Source: Fischerella sp. CENA71
Lineage (GTDB): Bacteria > Cyanobacteriota > Cyanobacteriia > Cyanobacteriales > Nostocaceae
NCBI GenBank assembly: GCA_024239075.1
Contig: JANBVI010000020.1
Location: 212,956-276,955, forward strand
DNA length: 64,000 nt
Direction of reading: 5' to 3'
Shown here: piece after piece, positions 49,119 through 61,476 of the stretch
Layout of the letters: the number at the start of each line of letters is the position of its first letter
How positions within the stretch are numbered: the first letter of the stretch is position 1
The notes under the pieces: model-generated
Told to the model about the DNA's origin: nothing
Databases searched by the model: none
What the model saw: the letters and a program-made list of their open reading frames with translations, nothing else
Position numbers and translations under genes: made by a program

Positions 49119-49172
49119 TTGTTGGGGATTGGGCATGAATCAGTTAACAGTTAATAGTTAACAGTTTAATTT

Positions 49173-49200
49173 GATAACTGATAACTGATAACTGATAACT
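49173..49200. repeat. Heptamer repeat (GATAACT)4
   Basis: Four perfect GATAACT units between the convergent raf1 and phosphatase genes. An identical array is at 52014-52041. Confidence 0.92.
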
Positions 49201-49224
49201 GATACCAATCCCCCTTCCCTACTC

Positions 49225-51952: not shown

Positions 51953-52013
51953 TTAATGGTTGGTAGTAGGTGGTTATTAGTTAGGAATCAGTGAACAGTG
52001 AGTAATCAAATTT

Positions 52014-52041
52014 GATAACTGATAACTGATAACTGATAACT
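52014..52041. repeat. Heptamer repeat (GATAACT)4
   Basis: Four perfect units between nfeD and the stomatin-like gene, followed by TCAGGAG, which serves as ribosome-binding site. Identical to 49173-49200. Confidence 0.92.
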
Positions 52042-52065
52042 GATTTATATATCAGGAGATAAATA

Positions 52066-56086: not shown

Positions 56087-56215
56087 ATTTTTTAACTAGT
56101 AACACGGTAAATGCTTGAATGAGAGAATATTACCAGTACGCATTCTAGATTGATGAGTTTGTTCTAATTTCTTTATGATGATGACTATTAAAAAACTTTG
56201 ATTATCTTATAAAAA

Positions 56216-57430
56216 TTAAACGTTTTCTTCTTCTAAGACCTGTTCGATAAATCTTTGGACTAAAGGTACTTGTAAACCATTGCCTTCTGGAGTCAATATC
56301 TCTTTTCGCATCAGTTTTTTGATAATACCTTTGTCTTGTGCTGTGGGAGTTTGTGCTTGGATTAAACGGCTAATAAAATTGCGATCGCTCTCCTGCAAAC
56401 TTGTCCATAATTCCCGGAAATACTGATCGCCTCGCTCTAGTACTGTGGGAATAACAGAGTGTACATCTTTTAAACTGGCTTTGATGCCCTCTAATTCTCG
56501 CTTGTTTTCTCTAATATCTCGATTCAATCGTTCTACCACTTCGCAGCATACTAACTGGACTAAATAAGGTTGGCAACGAGTTAGTTTGATAATCTCATTG
56601 ACAGCCTCTGGTGTATAAATTGTTGGGAAATTCTCGACAGGTTCCAAAATCAATTCACGGGCAGATACTTCATCCAAAAAACTTACACGGATAGTACGGG
56701 TATTTATTAGATAGTCGTTCCAATAGGGCGGAAGTTCGGCAACTTCATGAGAGCCACTGAAAAGCAAAGTCCACTGGCGACGGTGTTGCAAGACATTGCG
56801 GAGAAAATTGAGTGGTACGCGGCTACCTGTCGCCTCTACTACTTCACTGAGGCGTTCAAATTCATCCAAATTCAGGAGAAAGCGCTTGCTGGGGTGAGTA
56901 CGTTCTATTTCTGCGAGCCAATTTTGCAGGGCGATGAATGGATCTGTTTTAATTTCCTTTGGGTAAGGCAAGTCTAAACGTCGGGGTAAGCGTCGGGCAG
57001 CTTCTATAATTTGTGTAACCAGATTTGTTGCTAAACCTGTAAGCGTAGTTGCTGATGCTGCTCCTTGTAAATCAATTAGCAATGGCACAAGTGTAGAATC
57101 TACTTTGTAAGGCAGGTACTTGAGAGCAGAAGTTTTACCAGCCCGACGCCCACCATAAAGTAACAACACGGGTGGCTGATCTGCAAGTGACAAAGTTTCG
57201 ATTTCCCGAAAAATATCAATGCGTCCTTTAAAGCGATGTTCGGCTGTTTCTGGATCTAGGGCGTTACCAGCTATATAAACTTGTCTAATTTCCTGTCGTT
57301 GTTGTGCTGTTTGGTGTAAGGTACGCTGCGCTGTTTCCAGAATCGCTAGCCATTGATCAGTGATTTGCCGAGAATTAGTAGCTAACTGCGGATTTCGCTC
57401 AAAAGCCAGACTGTTTTGCAGCTTTTGCAA
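56216..57430 (-). CDS. AAA/STAND-like P-loop ATPase 1
   Basis: Protein of 404 aa, subfamily not named. After a helical N-terminus (1-60) comes FKGRIDIFREIE, then Walker A GGRRAGKTS at 93-101 and Walker B FLLNLDEFERL (Asp189-Glu190). Sensor-type LLFSGSHEVAELPPYW and the winged-helix region with LTRCQPYLVQLVCCEVVERL fit archaeal-ATPase or nSTAND modules. The start is a TTG with no ribosome-binding site, 4 bp behind the membrane-protein stop; no internal Met is available early, so coupling or a former fusion is likely. It probably works with that membrane protein. Function unknown. Confidence 0.8.
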   Translation of the reverse strand: MQKLQNSLAFERNPQLATNSRQITDQWLAILETAQRTLHQTAQQRQEIRQVYIAGNALDPETAEHRFKGRIDIFREIETLSLADQPPVLLLYGGRRAGKTSALKYLPYKVDSTLVPLLIDLQGAASATTLTGLATNLVTQIIEAARRLPRRLDLPYPKEIKTDPFIALQNWLAEIERTHPSKRFLLNLDEFERLSEVVEATGSRVPLNFLRNVLQHRRQWTLLFSGSHEVAELPPYWNDYLINTRTIRVSFLDEVSARELILEPVENFPTIYTPEAVNEIIKLTRCQPYLVQLVCCEVVERLNRDIRENKRELEGIKASLKDVHSVIPTVLERGDQYFRELWTSLQESDRNFISRLIQAQTPTAQDKGIIKKLMRKEILTPEGNGLQVPLVQRFIEQVLEEENV

Positions 57431-57434
57431 AGCA

Positions 57435-58394
57435 TTAATTAGGACGGTTTAATAATTCACTCTGGCGAGACGAAGTTGCTGTAACTGCTGCTTTTACATC
57501 TTGGCTAATGTCTAGTAACTGGGATAATGCATTGCCTAATTCTTTTGGTGCTGGTGAGGGAATCCAATTTAGATGGTTGGGGATTTCAGCAATATCCCCC
57601 AGTGTGTGACATAGTTTGAGATTATCTATAGTAATACCAGCCATAGCTTGTGCTGCAACTTTTTGCTGGTTAGTGGAATTAATCAGATAATCAATTGTCT
57701 CACGGGCAGCATCTGGGTTTTCTCGATAGGCTTCGACAATTAGCCTATCCATAAAAGGTAGTGGCAAGTTAATTTTTTCATCAAAACGGGGTGGCAGATA
57801 ACCCAGCCATTTCCCGCCATCCCTATGTCGGGATAACACAAAAAAGAGGATTAGCATCCAGAGAAATTCTGGTAGCCAAAAGTAAAACCGTAGCACACCA
57901 AGAATAAACGCCACGCCACTCGCCACGCCTAAAGCCACGCCAAAAGCCACGCCAAAAGCCACGCCTAAAGCCACGCCTAAAGAATCGTATGTCAAAGCAG
58001 TGATAAAGCCAGCTACGACTAGTAGGAGTATTTTCAGCCTTTGCTGAGGAAAAGCTACTAGCATTAAACCTATAATCCAACCCACTAAAAATAGAAAAGA
58101 GAAGAACCAGCGAAAAGCTTCATGACTTATTAACGTGTAGATTGGCGCTACGAGTATGACAATCAGCCAAGGCACTAAAGCTGTGAGCCACCAAACTTGC
58201 CCAGCATAGCGGTGCAAGCGTGGATTAGTTTTAAAATTCGCTCGTTTGCTAAATACGTTGGTGTCTAGCTTTAGTTCTGGATGGATATCGCGTAGCCAGC
58301 GTTTCAAGGTATAGGGTTTGAAGTAAACCCAGTAGAGGAGACGGGCGCATTCAGTGATGTAAGTCCAAAGTTTGGCAGTTCGCGTTTTGCTCAT
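57435..58394 (-). CDS. Membrane protein with GVAF tetrapeptide repeats, partner of ATPase 1
   Basis: Protein of 319 aa from the ATG at 58394 (a GTG at 58409 would add five residues). Hydrophobic segments occur at about 70-90, 103-125 and 130-150, then six 12-bp DNA repeats encode GVALGVAFGVAFGVALGVAS, a Gly-Ala-rich membrane stretch, followed by FWLPEFLWMLILFFVLS. The C-terminal 120 residues are cytosolic and helical (MDRLIVEAYRENPDAARETI, QDVKAAVTATSSRQSELL). No enzyme motif. The stop lies 4 bp before the start of ATPase 1. Confidence 0.78.
   Translation of the reverse strand: MSKTRTAKLWTYITECARLLYWVYFKPYTLKRWLRDIHPELKLDTNVFSKRANFKTNPRLHRYAGQVWWLTALVPWLIVILVAPIYTLISHEAFRWFFSFLFLVGWIIGLMLVAFPQQRLKILLLVVAGFITALTYDSLGVALGVAFGVAFGVALGVASGVAFILGVLRFYFWLPEFLWMLILFFVLSRHRDGGKWLGYLPPRFDEKINLPLPFMDRLIVEAYRENPDAARETIDYLINSTNQQKVAAQAMAGITIDNLKLCHTLGDIAEIPNHLNWIPSPAPKELGNALSQLLDISQDVKAAVTATSSRQSELLNRPN
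57910..57981. repeat. 12-bp coding tandem repeat (GCCACGCCAAAA)6
   Basis: Six 12-bp units, each encoding GVAF or GVAL on the minus strand. A multiple of three keeps the frame, and copy number could vary between strains. Confidence 0.9.
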
Positions 58395-58590
58395 ATTTAC
58401 ATTTTGCACTTATGGGATAAACACCCTCAGAGTAAAATCCTTGTCATTAGACCTCTTGCACGAATACAAAACTTACCCTCATCCCCCAGCCCCTTCTCCC
58501 AAAATTGGGAGAAGGGGAGCTAATCTCAAAGTCCCTCTCTCAAACATGGGAGAGGGATTTAGGGAGAGGGCAAAAATTCATGCAAGAGTT

Positions 58591-58884
58591 CAAAGACTCG
58601 ACGACGGAGTTCAAACACTCGCTGACGAGTATCAAAGACTCGCCGACGAAGCTCAAACACTCGCCGACGAGGTTCAAACACTCGCTGACGAGTATCAAAC
58701 ACTCGACGACGAGGTTCAAACACTCGACGACGAGTATCAAACACTCGACGACGAGTATCAAACACTCGCTGACAAGGTTCAAATACTCGCTGACGAGTAT
58801 CAAACACTCGACGACGAGGTTCAAATACTCGACGACGAGTATCAAACACTCGGCGACGGGGTTCAAATACTCGACGACGAGTTT
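58591..58884. repeat. Array of fourteen 21-bp hairpin-forming repeats
   Basis: Fourteen units of exactly 21 bp, consensus CAAACACTCGACGACGAGTAT, with no indels and no spacers. In twelve or thirteen units a stem CTCG / CGAG encloses a tetraloop NNGA (ACGA, CTGA, CCGA, GCGA). Variation falls in the first two loop bases and in the last two or three bases (GTAT versus GGTT, often alternating). Changes hit all codon positions of the open plus frame, so it does not look protein-coding. It lies between ATPase 2 and the membrane-protein gene. Confidence 0.93.
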
Positions 58885-58890
58885 TCAAAC

Positions 58891-59958
58891 CTACCCCGCC
58901 ACTGCTTTTTGCAGCAAATCCTTAACCTGATCCCAATTCACTAAACCCACCACCACGAAAATTAGCAAAATCAAAATCACAAACCCGATAATCCAGTTAG
59001 TCACATCATCCACGTTTCCGCCAATGAATTTAGCGACTCTACCCAGACGAATCGGAAAATCCCAAACTATCCACCGTAACCATTCCCACTTTAACCAGCG
59101 ATGATTGGATGAAGACTGAGACTGATTAATTTCTTGCAAAAATTGCTCTTTTGCCCATTGGATATCTTTGCCTTGGTGACGCGCTTCCCACAAGCACCTG
59201 CAAGCGAGTTGTAGTTTATAAGGATGGCGCTTACCCCACTGTTGAGCGTGGTTTTGCTCATTTACACTCAAAGCTGATGCGCCAGTATTGTCAGGTAAAC
59301 GTGTGAGTTGAATCGCCTCATCTGTAGTCAGTTCACCCAAAACCAAAGTTTGACCGACATTAAAGAAAGGAGAAGTCAACCCTTTCTCAGCAGCATAAGT
59401 TCCCAGCTTTTTACGCGAAGCTACCACCAGCATCAAAGCACTATCATCCATGAGCGATCGCAAACTATTATAAAAATTGTTATCAAATTCCTGAGGACGT
59501 TCCAAAAGTATCTGAAAATCATCTAAACAGAGAACCGGTAACACATCCTGCTTTTTCCATTTTTTGATCGCGTCCGAGAAAGCTTGACGATTCAGCGGTT
59601 GAACCTGCAAAGGATTTCTCAATTGCAGTTTCCACAAAGCCAGACGATTTAATAACGCTTGTGCCACTACTTCATAAAAACCCATCTCTGTTTCACAGTT
59701 TGCATCCCGTAAGGACAGGTAAATCACCACATAACGGCTTGGATCTGTGACTCGCTGTTCCCATGTCAGGAAAAAGTAGTACAGTAACGAAGATTTACCA
59801 ATGTGTTTTTCACCAACAATATTGACACTTGTTGGCTGTACACCGCTCATCCGGGATGCGATCGCATTTAATTCTTCTTTACGACCCACAAATAACCTGG
59901 GGTCTTTAATCATTCCCGGAGCTACAAAAGGATTAGCAGACACCGCTCCTGAGTTCAT
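58891..59958 (-). CDS. AAA/STAND-like P-loop ATPase 2 with C-terminal membrane anchor
   Basis: Protein of 355 aa. Conserved N-terminal NPFVAPGMIKDPRLFVGRKE leads into Walker A GEKHIGKSS (49-57) and Walker B VLPVLCLDDFQIL (Asp146-Asp147). KRHPYKLQLACRCLWEA is the lid/winged region. A single membrane segment near 322-340 (WIIGFVILILLIFVVVGLV) precedes a short tail. It resembles stand-alone nSTAND NTPases anchored to the membrane. Its 3' end touches the 21-bp repeat array, and the membrane protein and ATPase 1 follow on the same strand. Function is unknown. Confidence 0.82.
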   Translation of the reverse strand: MNSGAVSANPFVAPGMIKDPRLFVGRKEELNAIASRMSGVQPTSVNIVGEKHIGKSSLLYYFFLTWEQRVTDPSRYVVIYLSLRDANCETEMGFYEVVAQALLNRLALWKLQLRNPLQVQPLNRQAFSDAIKKWKKQDVLPVLCLDDFQILLERPQEFDNNFYNSLRSLMDDSALMLVVASRKKLGTYAAEKGLTSPFFNVGQTLVLGELTTDEAIQLTRLPDNTGASALSVNEQNHAQQWGKRHPYKLQLACRCLWEARHQGKDIQWAKEQFLQEINQSQSSSNHRWLKWEWLRWIVWDFPIRLGRVAKFIGGNVDDVTNWIIGFVILILLIFVVVGLVNWDQVKDLLQKAVAG

Positions 59959-60258
59959 ACCAAAGTTTATGCTAATTACAGCAATTGAAAGGTAATTACT
60001 TCAAAAGATACCACTAGCTCTACAATGCTTTTGAGAACCGATACATAATTTATCTGGCTTGTTCTGCCTACAGACTTCCCTAATACGATCTCATTTTTTT
60101 GATGATACAAATACATCCGTATGGGCGTACACCTGTACACTCCTACAAGAAATAATTCTCTATATAAAGACTCTGCGACCCTCAGCGTTGACTCTGCGTT
60201 CCTCTGCGTTTAAACACAAAGTTGTACTAAGTGCTTGCCTTCCAGTATCCTAAAGCCG
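59959..60258. other. Intergenic region with dispersed-repeat fragments
   Basis: 300 bp. It contains ACTCTGCGACCCTCAGCGTT and GACTCTGCGTTCCTCTGCGT (60168-60207), direct repeats common between cyanobacterial genes. No gene seen. Confidence 0.5.
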
Positions 60259-61476
60259 CTAGCCATCACTCTCAGTTATCAATTCTCTCAGCGCTTTCCC
60301 CAAATACTCATACTCTTCAATCCTGTTGTAAATCTGCGCGGAAATTCTCACCAGTAACTTCGGTGTCTCTTGCCAAGGAACCACTTGCACCTGAATATTA
60401 AACTGATCAAATAACTCATCGCGCACAGATAAAAAATTGCGGTTTGACAAACGGAGAGGTATCGGTACAACAGCCATTGAGCCAATCATCTCTTCGGGAC
60501 AAGGTGGCAAAACTTGGAGTGTTTCACAAAGTAGCTGTCTAGCTTGCAATGCTAATTGATGATTGCGCTGTCGCAATTCATCCCAACCACCAGGTAACAG
60601 CGAACCCAAAAATGCGATCGCTTCTGGGACGCACATATACGCAGTAGGGTCATCTGTTCCCATCCAGTCAAATTCCAATTGAAAGCGACTTTTATCAGTG
60701 CGTGGCGAGTTCGCACCGTGGCTAATTGTCAAGGGACGAATTTCTGGTTGTTTATCTGGTTGCACATACAAAAAAGCCGCTCCCTTGGGCGCACACAGCC
60801 ATTTATGGCAATTTCCCGTGTAATAAGTCGCCCCAATTGATTGCAAATTTAGGGGTAACATACCCGGTGCATGAGCGCCATCTACAAGTGTGTCCACACC
60901 CCTTGCTTGCAATTGTTGCACCAACTGCTGTAGGGGAAAGATTAATGCTGTTTGACTGCTGACATGATCTAGTAATGCTAATTTTGTTTGAGGTGAAACT
61001 CGCTCGATGACTGCTTCTACAATTTGCTGAGGCGAATCGAGGGGAAAAGGAATCTGAGCGACTACTATCTGTGCGCCTGTGCGACTGGCGATAAAATCAA
61101 GGGCATTACGACAAGCGTTGTACTCGTGGTTAGTTGTGAGTATTTCGTCTCCGGGATGAAAAGTCAGGGAACGCAACACCGCATTGACGCCAGTGGTTGC
61201 ATTCGGGACAAATACCAAATCCTCGACATCAGCACCGACAAACTTCGCTAGTTTGCTTTTAGCCCCATCTAGTAGGGGTTCCCATTCCCTGGTGAAAAAT
61301 CGTAGTGGTTCCTGTTCGAGTTGCGATCGCAACTGTTGCTGAAACAATAAGACTGCGATCGGGCAAGCACCAAACGATCCGTGATTGAGAAAAGTTATCT
61401 TTGGATCAAGCGACCATAAATTCTTAAAGCGTGAATATTGAAGCCTGAAGTCTGAAAAGTTTTTTTTATCCTTCAT
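60259..61476 (-). CDS. PLP-dependent class V aminotransferase (isopenicillin-N epimerase-like)
   Basis: Protein of 405 aa of fold-type I. The N-terminus ITFLNHGSFGACP is typical of the epimerase-like branch. The cofactor Asp-His is in LVDGAHAPGMLPLNL and the Schiff-base Lys in YYTGNCHKWLCAPKGAAFL. VPNATTGVNAVLRSL binds the phosphate. Proteins of this branch include cysteine desulphurase-like and epimerase-like enzymes, so the actual reaction is unclear. A tRNA gene lies just upstream. It stands alone. Confidence 0.88.
   Translation of the reverse strand: MKDKKNFSDFRLQYSRFKNLWSLDPKITFLNHGSFGACPIAVLLFQQQLRSQLEQEPLRFFTREWEPLLDGAKSKLAKFVGADVEDLVFVPNATTGVNAVLRSLTFHPGDEILTTNHEYNACRNALDFIASRTGAQIVVAQIPFPLDSPQQIVEAVIERVSPQTKLALLDHVSSQTALIFPLQQLVQQLQARGVDTLVDGAHAPGMLPLNLQSIGATYYTGNCHKWLCAPKGAAFLYVQPDKQPEIRPLTISHGANSPRTDKSRFQLEFDWMGTDDPTAYMCVPEAIAFLGSLLPGGWDELRQRNHQLALQARQLLCETLQVLPPCPEEMIGSMAVVPIPLRLSNRNFLSVRDELFDQFNIQVQVVPWQETPKLLVRISAQIYNRIEEYEYLGKALRELITESDG

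Follow-up and report, generated by a model that had tools for sequence, protein, structure and literature searches.

In the window, that is the whole 64,000-nucleotide stretch of Fischerella sp. CENA71 DNA analysed here, positions 58591 to 58884 are occupied on the plus strand by a tandem array of 14 units, each of exactly 21 bp, as the first-pass annotation had described. With a score of 346 it ranks first among the tandem repeats of the window, its units have a mean pairwise identity of 0.84, and it is a member of a dispersed family. Every unit, of a CAAA-N-ACTCG-NNNN-CGAGT-like form, is composed of a 14-bp imperfect palindrome and a 7-bp spacer, the CAAA of which defines the strand. The stem CTCG/CGAG was thought to be kept almost everywhere, and this is correct for the left half, which is intact in 14/14 units, but not for CGAG, which is intact in only 10/14. 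Likewise, the proposed G-U change does keep pairing in unit 13 (CGGG), whereas the variants CGGA, CGAA and CAAG are unpaired in register.

The array is located, in agreement with the earlier placement, between an AAA ATPase gene, here called ATPase 2 (58891-59958, minus strand; ATPase_2 and AAA_16 matches below Pfam cut-offs), and the membrane gene part (57435-58409, minus strand). It comes right after the stop codon of ATPase 2, which its last unit (58864-58884) adjoins, and at the other side it is abutted by a MITE-like element (58450-58590). This neighbour has its own ends: its imperfect terminal inverted repeats match at 14 of 17 positions, the last position being the first base of the array. 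One promoter-like match was found inside the array, on the minus strand. In several other genomes the membrane gene is fused with ATPase 1 in one frame of about 800 codons, and the ATPase 1 part (56216-57430, minus strand) belongs to the same gene, split off here; the occurrence of two frames over 56216-58409 resembles the effect of a frameshift or a sequencing error. The membrane gene also contains a 12-bp tandem repeat at 57906-57982 (GVAFGVA-like residues), where alignments to relatives break and the length may vary.

Locus set and unit definition

The set of 101 loci consisted of 100 fetched loci and L001, and came from six genomes. An anchor (AAANACTC and its near forms) served to find the units, which means that the conservation of these letters is partly given by construction and divergent arrays are missed. 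A chain was defined as at least 3 units, and 107 chains were obtained in 92 of the 101 loci; the nine loci without a chain were dropped, yet at least one of them, L105, holds an array by BLAST. From a total of 1016 units, 16 with undetermined letters were dropped, leaving 1000 for analysis, 352 of them distinct. Their consensus is ACTCG NNNN CGAGT with a spacer of 7 bases around ATCAAAG. Gene calling relied on a home-made hexamer score instead of a standard gene finder.

Distribution of the repeat family

The array family is present at 13 places of its own genome (14 matches, one place being matched on both strands), three of which are only 32-38 bp long. All five genus genomes gave matches, 14, 17, 21, 74 and 14 in number, where overlapping and both-strand matches of one array are counted apart. 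At E values up to 1e-6, the family was matched in 51 of 146 genomes of the bacterial family, representing 21 of its 56 genera, while a strict pattern was matched in 7 of 242 genomes of the class. The 25 named matching stretches come, for example, from Nostoc, Scytonema, Hassallia, Mojavia, Coleofasciculus and Leptolyngbyaceae.

Carriage by plasmids or viruses was considered and set aside, as no record of the plasmid collection matched the array, and the single pattern match in the viral collection searched is one unit in an apparent reading frame, which we take as chance. The 21-bp family is not described in the titles and abstract beginnings of the literature searched, which is weak evidence of absence, subscription journals lying mostly outside that scope.

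The array site in relatives

In this comparison, which is between species with one genome for each, the copy number at the window site was found to differ, as the first-pass annotation had suggested checking: 14 units in the window stand against 10 in G002, 9 in G003 and a single solitary hairpin in G004, in the place of the last unit. G003 possesses a similar solitary hairpin besides its array. Next to the G002 array, ATPase 1 is represented only by its last ~60 codons. The junction of the array and the MITE-like element is identical in the window, G002 and G003. At the ten homologous loci in other genera (L061-L070), each with a homologue of the neighbouring gene, the anchor test detected an array within 1.5 kb in none. 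Since the array is absent from those ten loci, varies in unit number and shares its MITE-like junction, the array and its MITE-like neighbour look like a lineage-specific insertion of changing size.

The homologues of the two genes separated by the array nearly touch in several genomes, the gap between the ATPase 2 and membrane gene matches being 18 bp in G041 and 21 bp in G036; it is 166 bp in G029 and ~360 bp in G031. A linked role of the array in the ATPase transcript, as was proposed from its placement, is not supported: the array is not conserved at the site and it is a member of a dispersed family without strand preference (see below). Most likely it landed between two ATPase genes by chance and does not work with them. 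For the ATPase cluster this serves as a warning, because a lineage-specific insertion gives no clue to function.

Turnover, dialects and flanks of the arrays

At one site, judged by the left flank only, we counted 2 units in G000 versus about 14 in G001. One array site of G003 is array-free in all four sisters (G000, G001, G002 and G004), and at another site, with a matching right flank, one dialect is found in G003 and a different one in G004 and G002. A further site carries arrays at a shared position in two genera.

Within a genome, the arrays tend towards a common unit dialect. Of 88 arrays, 55 had their nearest non-orthologous array in their own genome (permutation mean 20.3, maximum 38), and the same was true of 36 of 68 when the comparison was kept within the genus (2000 permutations; mean 20.8, maximum 34). 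Mean unit identity amounted to 0.743 for orthologous arrays (23 pairs), 0.734 for arrays of the same genome (695) and 0.708 for other pairs (1560), and the best-match unit identities were 0.859, 0.825 and 0.801, respectively. The orthologous pairs, which overlap and were chosen by eye from flank matches, exceed the own-genome mean in 16 of 25 cases. Orthologous arrays thus resemble each other little more than unrelated arrays of the same genome do, which suggests exchange between loci; a small excess of likeness persists, so the rewriting would be incomplete.

Some arrays lie inside recurring flanking sequences. Type A flanks were detected by BLAST as a 5' tail at 16 and a 3' tail at 26 of 126 loci, some over only 18-30 bp; orthologous loci are counted apart here and the window copy is not among them. 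Type B flanks recur at 6 and 8 loci (each count includes two places entered again under a different locus id) and type C flanks at 3 loci. The recurring type B and C flanks of L099, L142, L143, L177, L128, L131 and L135 suggest several carrier sequences. Neither terminal inverted repeats nor a target duplication around the arrays was seen by eye in 34 flank rows. Mobilisation by a RAYT is unsupported, as all 16 matches to a Y1 transposase are more than 5 kb from the array places known, the nearest being about 6.2 kb away, in G004. Dispersed solitary hairpins were also considered as seeds of arrays; they are not enriched in the own genome, where one pattern with one mismatch gave 11 occurrences versus 32 for the control.

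Strictness of the 21-bp step

Among 865 anchor spacings, 803 equal 21 bp, 50 equal 42 bp and 2 equal 63 bp, leaving 10 off step. In 892 pairs of adjacent units, which are not independent of each other, 3010 substitutions were counted against the 10 off-step junctions within chains, a ratio of 301; breaks between chains are out of phase in 14 of 15 cases, which brings the off-step total to 24 and the ratio to about 125. Alignments of intergenic DNA from these loci show 658 substitutions to 103 gap openings (6.4). The 21-bp step is therefore far stricter than the surrounding non-coding DNA predicts.

Other tandem repeats of these loci and of the window have a period divisible by 7 in 156 of 218 cases. 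As 7- and 14-bp repeats are abundant in the same loci, the step appears to follow a rule of 7 and not helix turns, and helical phasing is disfavoured as the cause of the number 21. Heptamers have been proposed to reflect slippage at the polymerase, according to the portion of PMC4679880 that deals with them. The TGATAAC repeats of the window, at 49172-49204 and 52013-52044, are a rotation of the TAACTGA direct repeats covered there.

The strict step would fit the possibility that the array is a set of sites for a putative DNA-binding protein, in which a 14-bp palindrome, the site of a dimer, would recur every two helical turns and act in nucleoid organisation or local silencing, with dialects tracking changes of the protein. 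The palindromic consensus, the dialects common to arrays of one genome and the lack of a strand preference, since a palindrome needs none, would all be accounted for. The many 7- and 14-bp periods fit the rule of 7 better than helix turns, however, the palindrome is imperfect with one variable half, and solitary palindromes are not in excess in the own genome, hence we regard such a protein as an unlikely explanation, if the least unlikely of the alternatives weighed here.

Placement relative to genes

Arrays are located between well-scored genes without strand preference. Out of 92 loci, 59 are between tandem genes, 21 between convergent and 10 between divergent ones, and 2 are at contig ends. 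In the tandem class, reduced to 57 by excluding L164 and L179 from the orientation counts, in which some neighbour genes are weakly scored, the array is on the strand of the genes in 30 cases and on the opposite one in 27 (p 0.79); it is nearer to the upstream stop in 37 and to the downstream start in 20 (p 0.03). This bias could be due to promoter avoidance or to a role at the 3' end. A predicted frame, usually weak, overlaps the array at 49 of the 92 loci. Of the 51 overlapping frames, 12 reach more than 150 nt outside the array; five of the weak frames were translated. A coding score >48 together with an extension of over 300 nt past the array is found only for the frames of L164, L179 and L113, which are read-through upstream of recognisable starts.

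A gene for a protein of ~158 aa was found beside arrays at several loci. In eight genomes, its close copies (identity of 59% or more across 140 or more residues; the duplicate row L238 was dropped from the table) number 11, of which 10, over two genera, have an array of at least two anchors at the 3' end (L221, L222, L223, L224, L225, L226, L228, L229, L230 and L234), and some of these arrays touch the stop codon. The gene is likewise followed by an array in L051 (Nostoc sp. ATCC 43529), which is left uncounted because it was fetched for its array. Such arrays are absent from all nine distant copies (44-49% identity) and from both fragments (43% and 60%). In G001, arrays are present and a match to the ~158-aa protein is absent. 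The protein has no match in Pfam or PHROGs and no credible one in NCBIfam, no credible relative among solved structures and none among viral contigs; one distant plasmid relative, at 38.5%, was found. The 10 array-bearing copies are not independent events owing to their shared ancestry. In view of these copies, and of the position shared by two genera at the site mentioned above, some arrays may be kept by selection.

From this gene one might argue that the palindromes are 3'-end elements which end or stabilise the transcripts of the upstream gene. The contrast between close copies and distant copies or fragments speaks for it, as do the greater nearness to stops, the excess of convergent over divergent sites (p 0.07) and the solitary hairpin that follows ATPase 2 in both G004 and G003. 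Yet the association with the ~158-aa gene may come from shared descent alone, the terminator scan gave no site in the array region, the window array separates genes that nearly touch elsewhere, and one site is empty in all four sisters; we consider a 3'-end function improbable.

Tests of RNA structure and coding

The first-pass annotation had favoured a structured RNA, and the stem was examined with this in mind. All five outer stem pairs are about as frequent as column composition predicts (observed versus expected, 0.614 versus 0.609 for pair 2-13 and 0.591 versus 0.555 for pair 5-10), while the inner loop pair 7-8 is above expectation (0.599 versus 0.418) and pair 6-9 below it (0.392 versus 0.471). 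In a half-shuffle test of folding energy, z was between -1.3 and -1.5 over all distinct units. It reached -4.6 in G009 and -3.3 when summed within arrays; the remaining five genomes ranged from -1.95 to +1.37. The z of -14.3 obtained by shuffling columns was rejected as evidence of a stem, because such a shuffle also breaks the linkage within one half, which the half-shuffle preserves.

An RNA structure acting in the ATPase transcript is not supported, covariation being little overall. Predicted folding is strong in comparison with dinucleotide shuffles (z -5.4 on the plus and -10.9 on the minus strand), but good folding would be expected of any repeated palindrome. Over 56200-60300 no Rfam match was above the gathering score, the sub-threshold matches being only to microRNAs and located in the neighbouring MITE-like element. 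With the arrays lacking strand preference and the array not conserved at the window site, we find this reading very improbable.

The array units are joined head to tail and without CRISPR spacers, so the earlier exclusion of a CRISPR stands. The earlier statement that all reading frames are open was too wide, since only 4 of 6 are stop-free inside the window array, but its conclusion that the array is not a protein very probably holds. Among 101 unbroken chains, the numbers of open ones are 24, 74, 86, 6, 25 and 82 for the six frames; none of the frames thus stays open throughout, and the only one whose variability is greatest at third positions is closed in 77 of these chains. Third-position variability follows no consistent pattern. 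A coding repeat such as a heptad coiled coil, for which a step divisible by 3, the four open frames of the window array and some arrays read through into the next gene could be cited, is already contradicted by these counts, by the random strand and by the DEYQTLA frame, open in 74 of the 101 chains and closed by TAA in L005, and is the least probable of all.

Discussion

We consider it quite probable that this array belongs, as one of many loci, to a dispersed, VNTR-like minisatellite family of filamentous cyanobacteria that is non-coding and falls in the class of repeats with lengths of 7n, its unit being three heptamers long. Tandem units within roughly 10-60 bp (14 x 21 bp) and a copy number differing between relatives at one site are both seen here. 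The first-pass annotation had set its own reading against a randomly placed, ordinary VNTR; the array largely fits that alternative.

In the mechanism which we propose, slippage or unequal recombination, aided by the palindromic units, would add and remove whole units, and copying between arrays would homogenise them and reject other lengths, keeping the step at 21. New loci might be founded by array DNA that travels together with small repeats next to it. The window array would have been inserted beside the MITE-like element, separating two genes that used to be neighbours, and probably has no specific role for them. Some results count against this minisatellite reading: neutral turnover alone does not predict so strict a step, covariation is non-zero in G009 and within arrays, and pair 7-8 exceeds expectation. 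So do the remaining likeness of orthologous arrays, the array positions shared by two genera, the nearness to stops beside tandem genes, the promoter-like match in the window array and the weak frames that overlap arrays at 49 loci.

Several known repeat systems offer themselves for comparison. REP/BIME elements are intergenic palindromes of many copies, mobilised by RAYT. The 21-bp family is similar as a many-copy intergenic palindrome, and differs in that it is tandem, its solitary copies are not enriched and no Y1 transposase gene is within 5 kb of it. Short tandemly repeated repetitive sequences (STRR) of filamentous cyanobacteria reportedly go back to Mazel et al. 1990. They are heptanucleotides, as introduced in PMC2670836, and share with our family the filamentous hosts, the intergenic location, the ability to form hairpins and a length that is a multiple of 7; the 7-bp unit of the STRR, as given there, is lacking here, where three unlike heptamers form a palindrome-bearing period of 21. 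The TAACTGA heptamers are presented in the relevant part of PMC4679880 as intergenic direct repeats in a range of cyanobacteria, with long arrays in some; their unit is of 7 bp and their sequence differs from that of the 21-bp family.

The 21-bp family behaves like a VNTR and resembles BrickBuilt of Porphyromonas gingivalis, outlined in PMC4596501 as a minisatellite/MITE with 23-nt units and 19 copies in one genome. By that outline, both have spacerless tandem units of about 20 bp in intergenic positions, with long predicted stem-loops, and a repeat number varying between strains (BrickBuilt) or between relatives at one locus (our family). The unit is 21 nt instead of 23, and the leader and tail that recur in BrickBuilt are found in the 21-bp family at a subset of loci only, the window copy having none of types A-C. 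Type A flanks have no terminal inverted repeats by eye, in contrast to the inverted ends attributed to BrickBuilt. Our family occurs in many genera, BrickBuilt, going by the same source, mainly in one species; unlike what is reported there, units of the 21-bp family are rewritten between sister genomes. The likeness is drawn from descriptions of the two families.

A more far-reaching reading, to which we give only a small chance, is that bacteria here have a counterpart of satellite DNA: chromosome-wide arrays of 21-bp palindromes, their phase kept by selection and their dialect rewritten across loci in step with changes of a putative trans-acting binding protein or of a machinery that copies arrays. 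If this were true, a candidate for the home locus would be the ~158-aa gene, whose array stands at the stop codon in two genera. The strict step, the dialects and the one conserved position of the family are in themselves worth testing. Repeats based on heptamers are a long-noted trait of cyanobacterial genomes, and in this family the number of loci in each genome, the sites shared by sister genomes, the strictness of the step and the dialects would make it possible to tell slippage from inter-locus copying and from selection for unit length.
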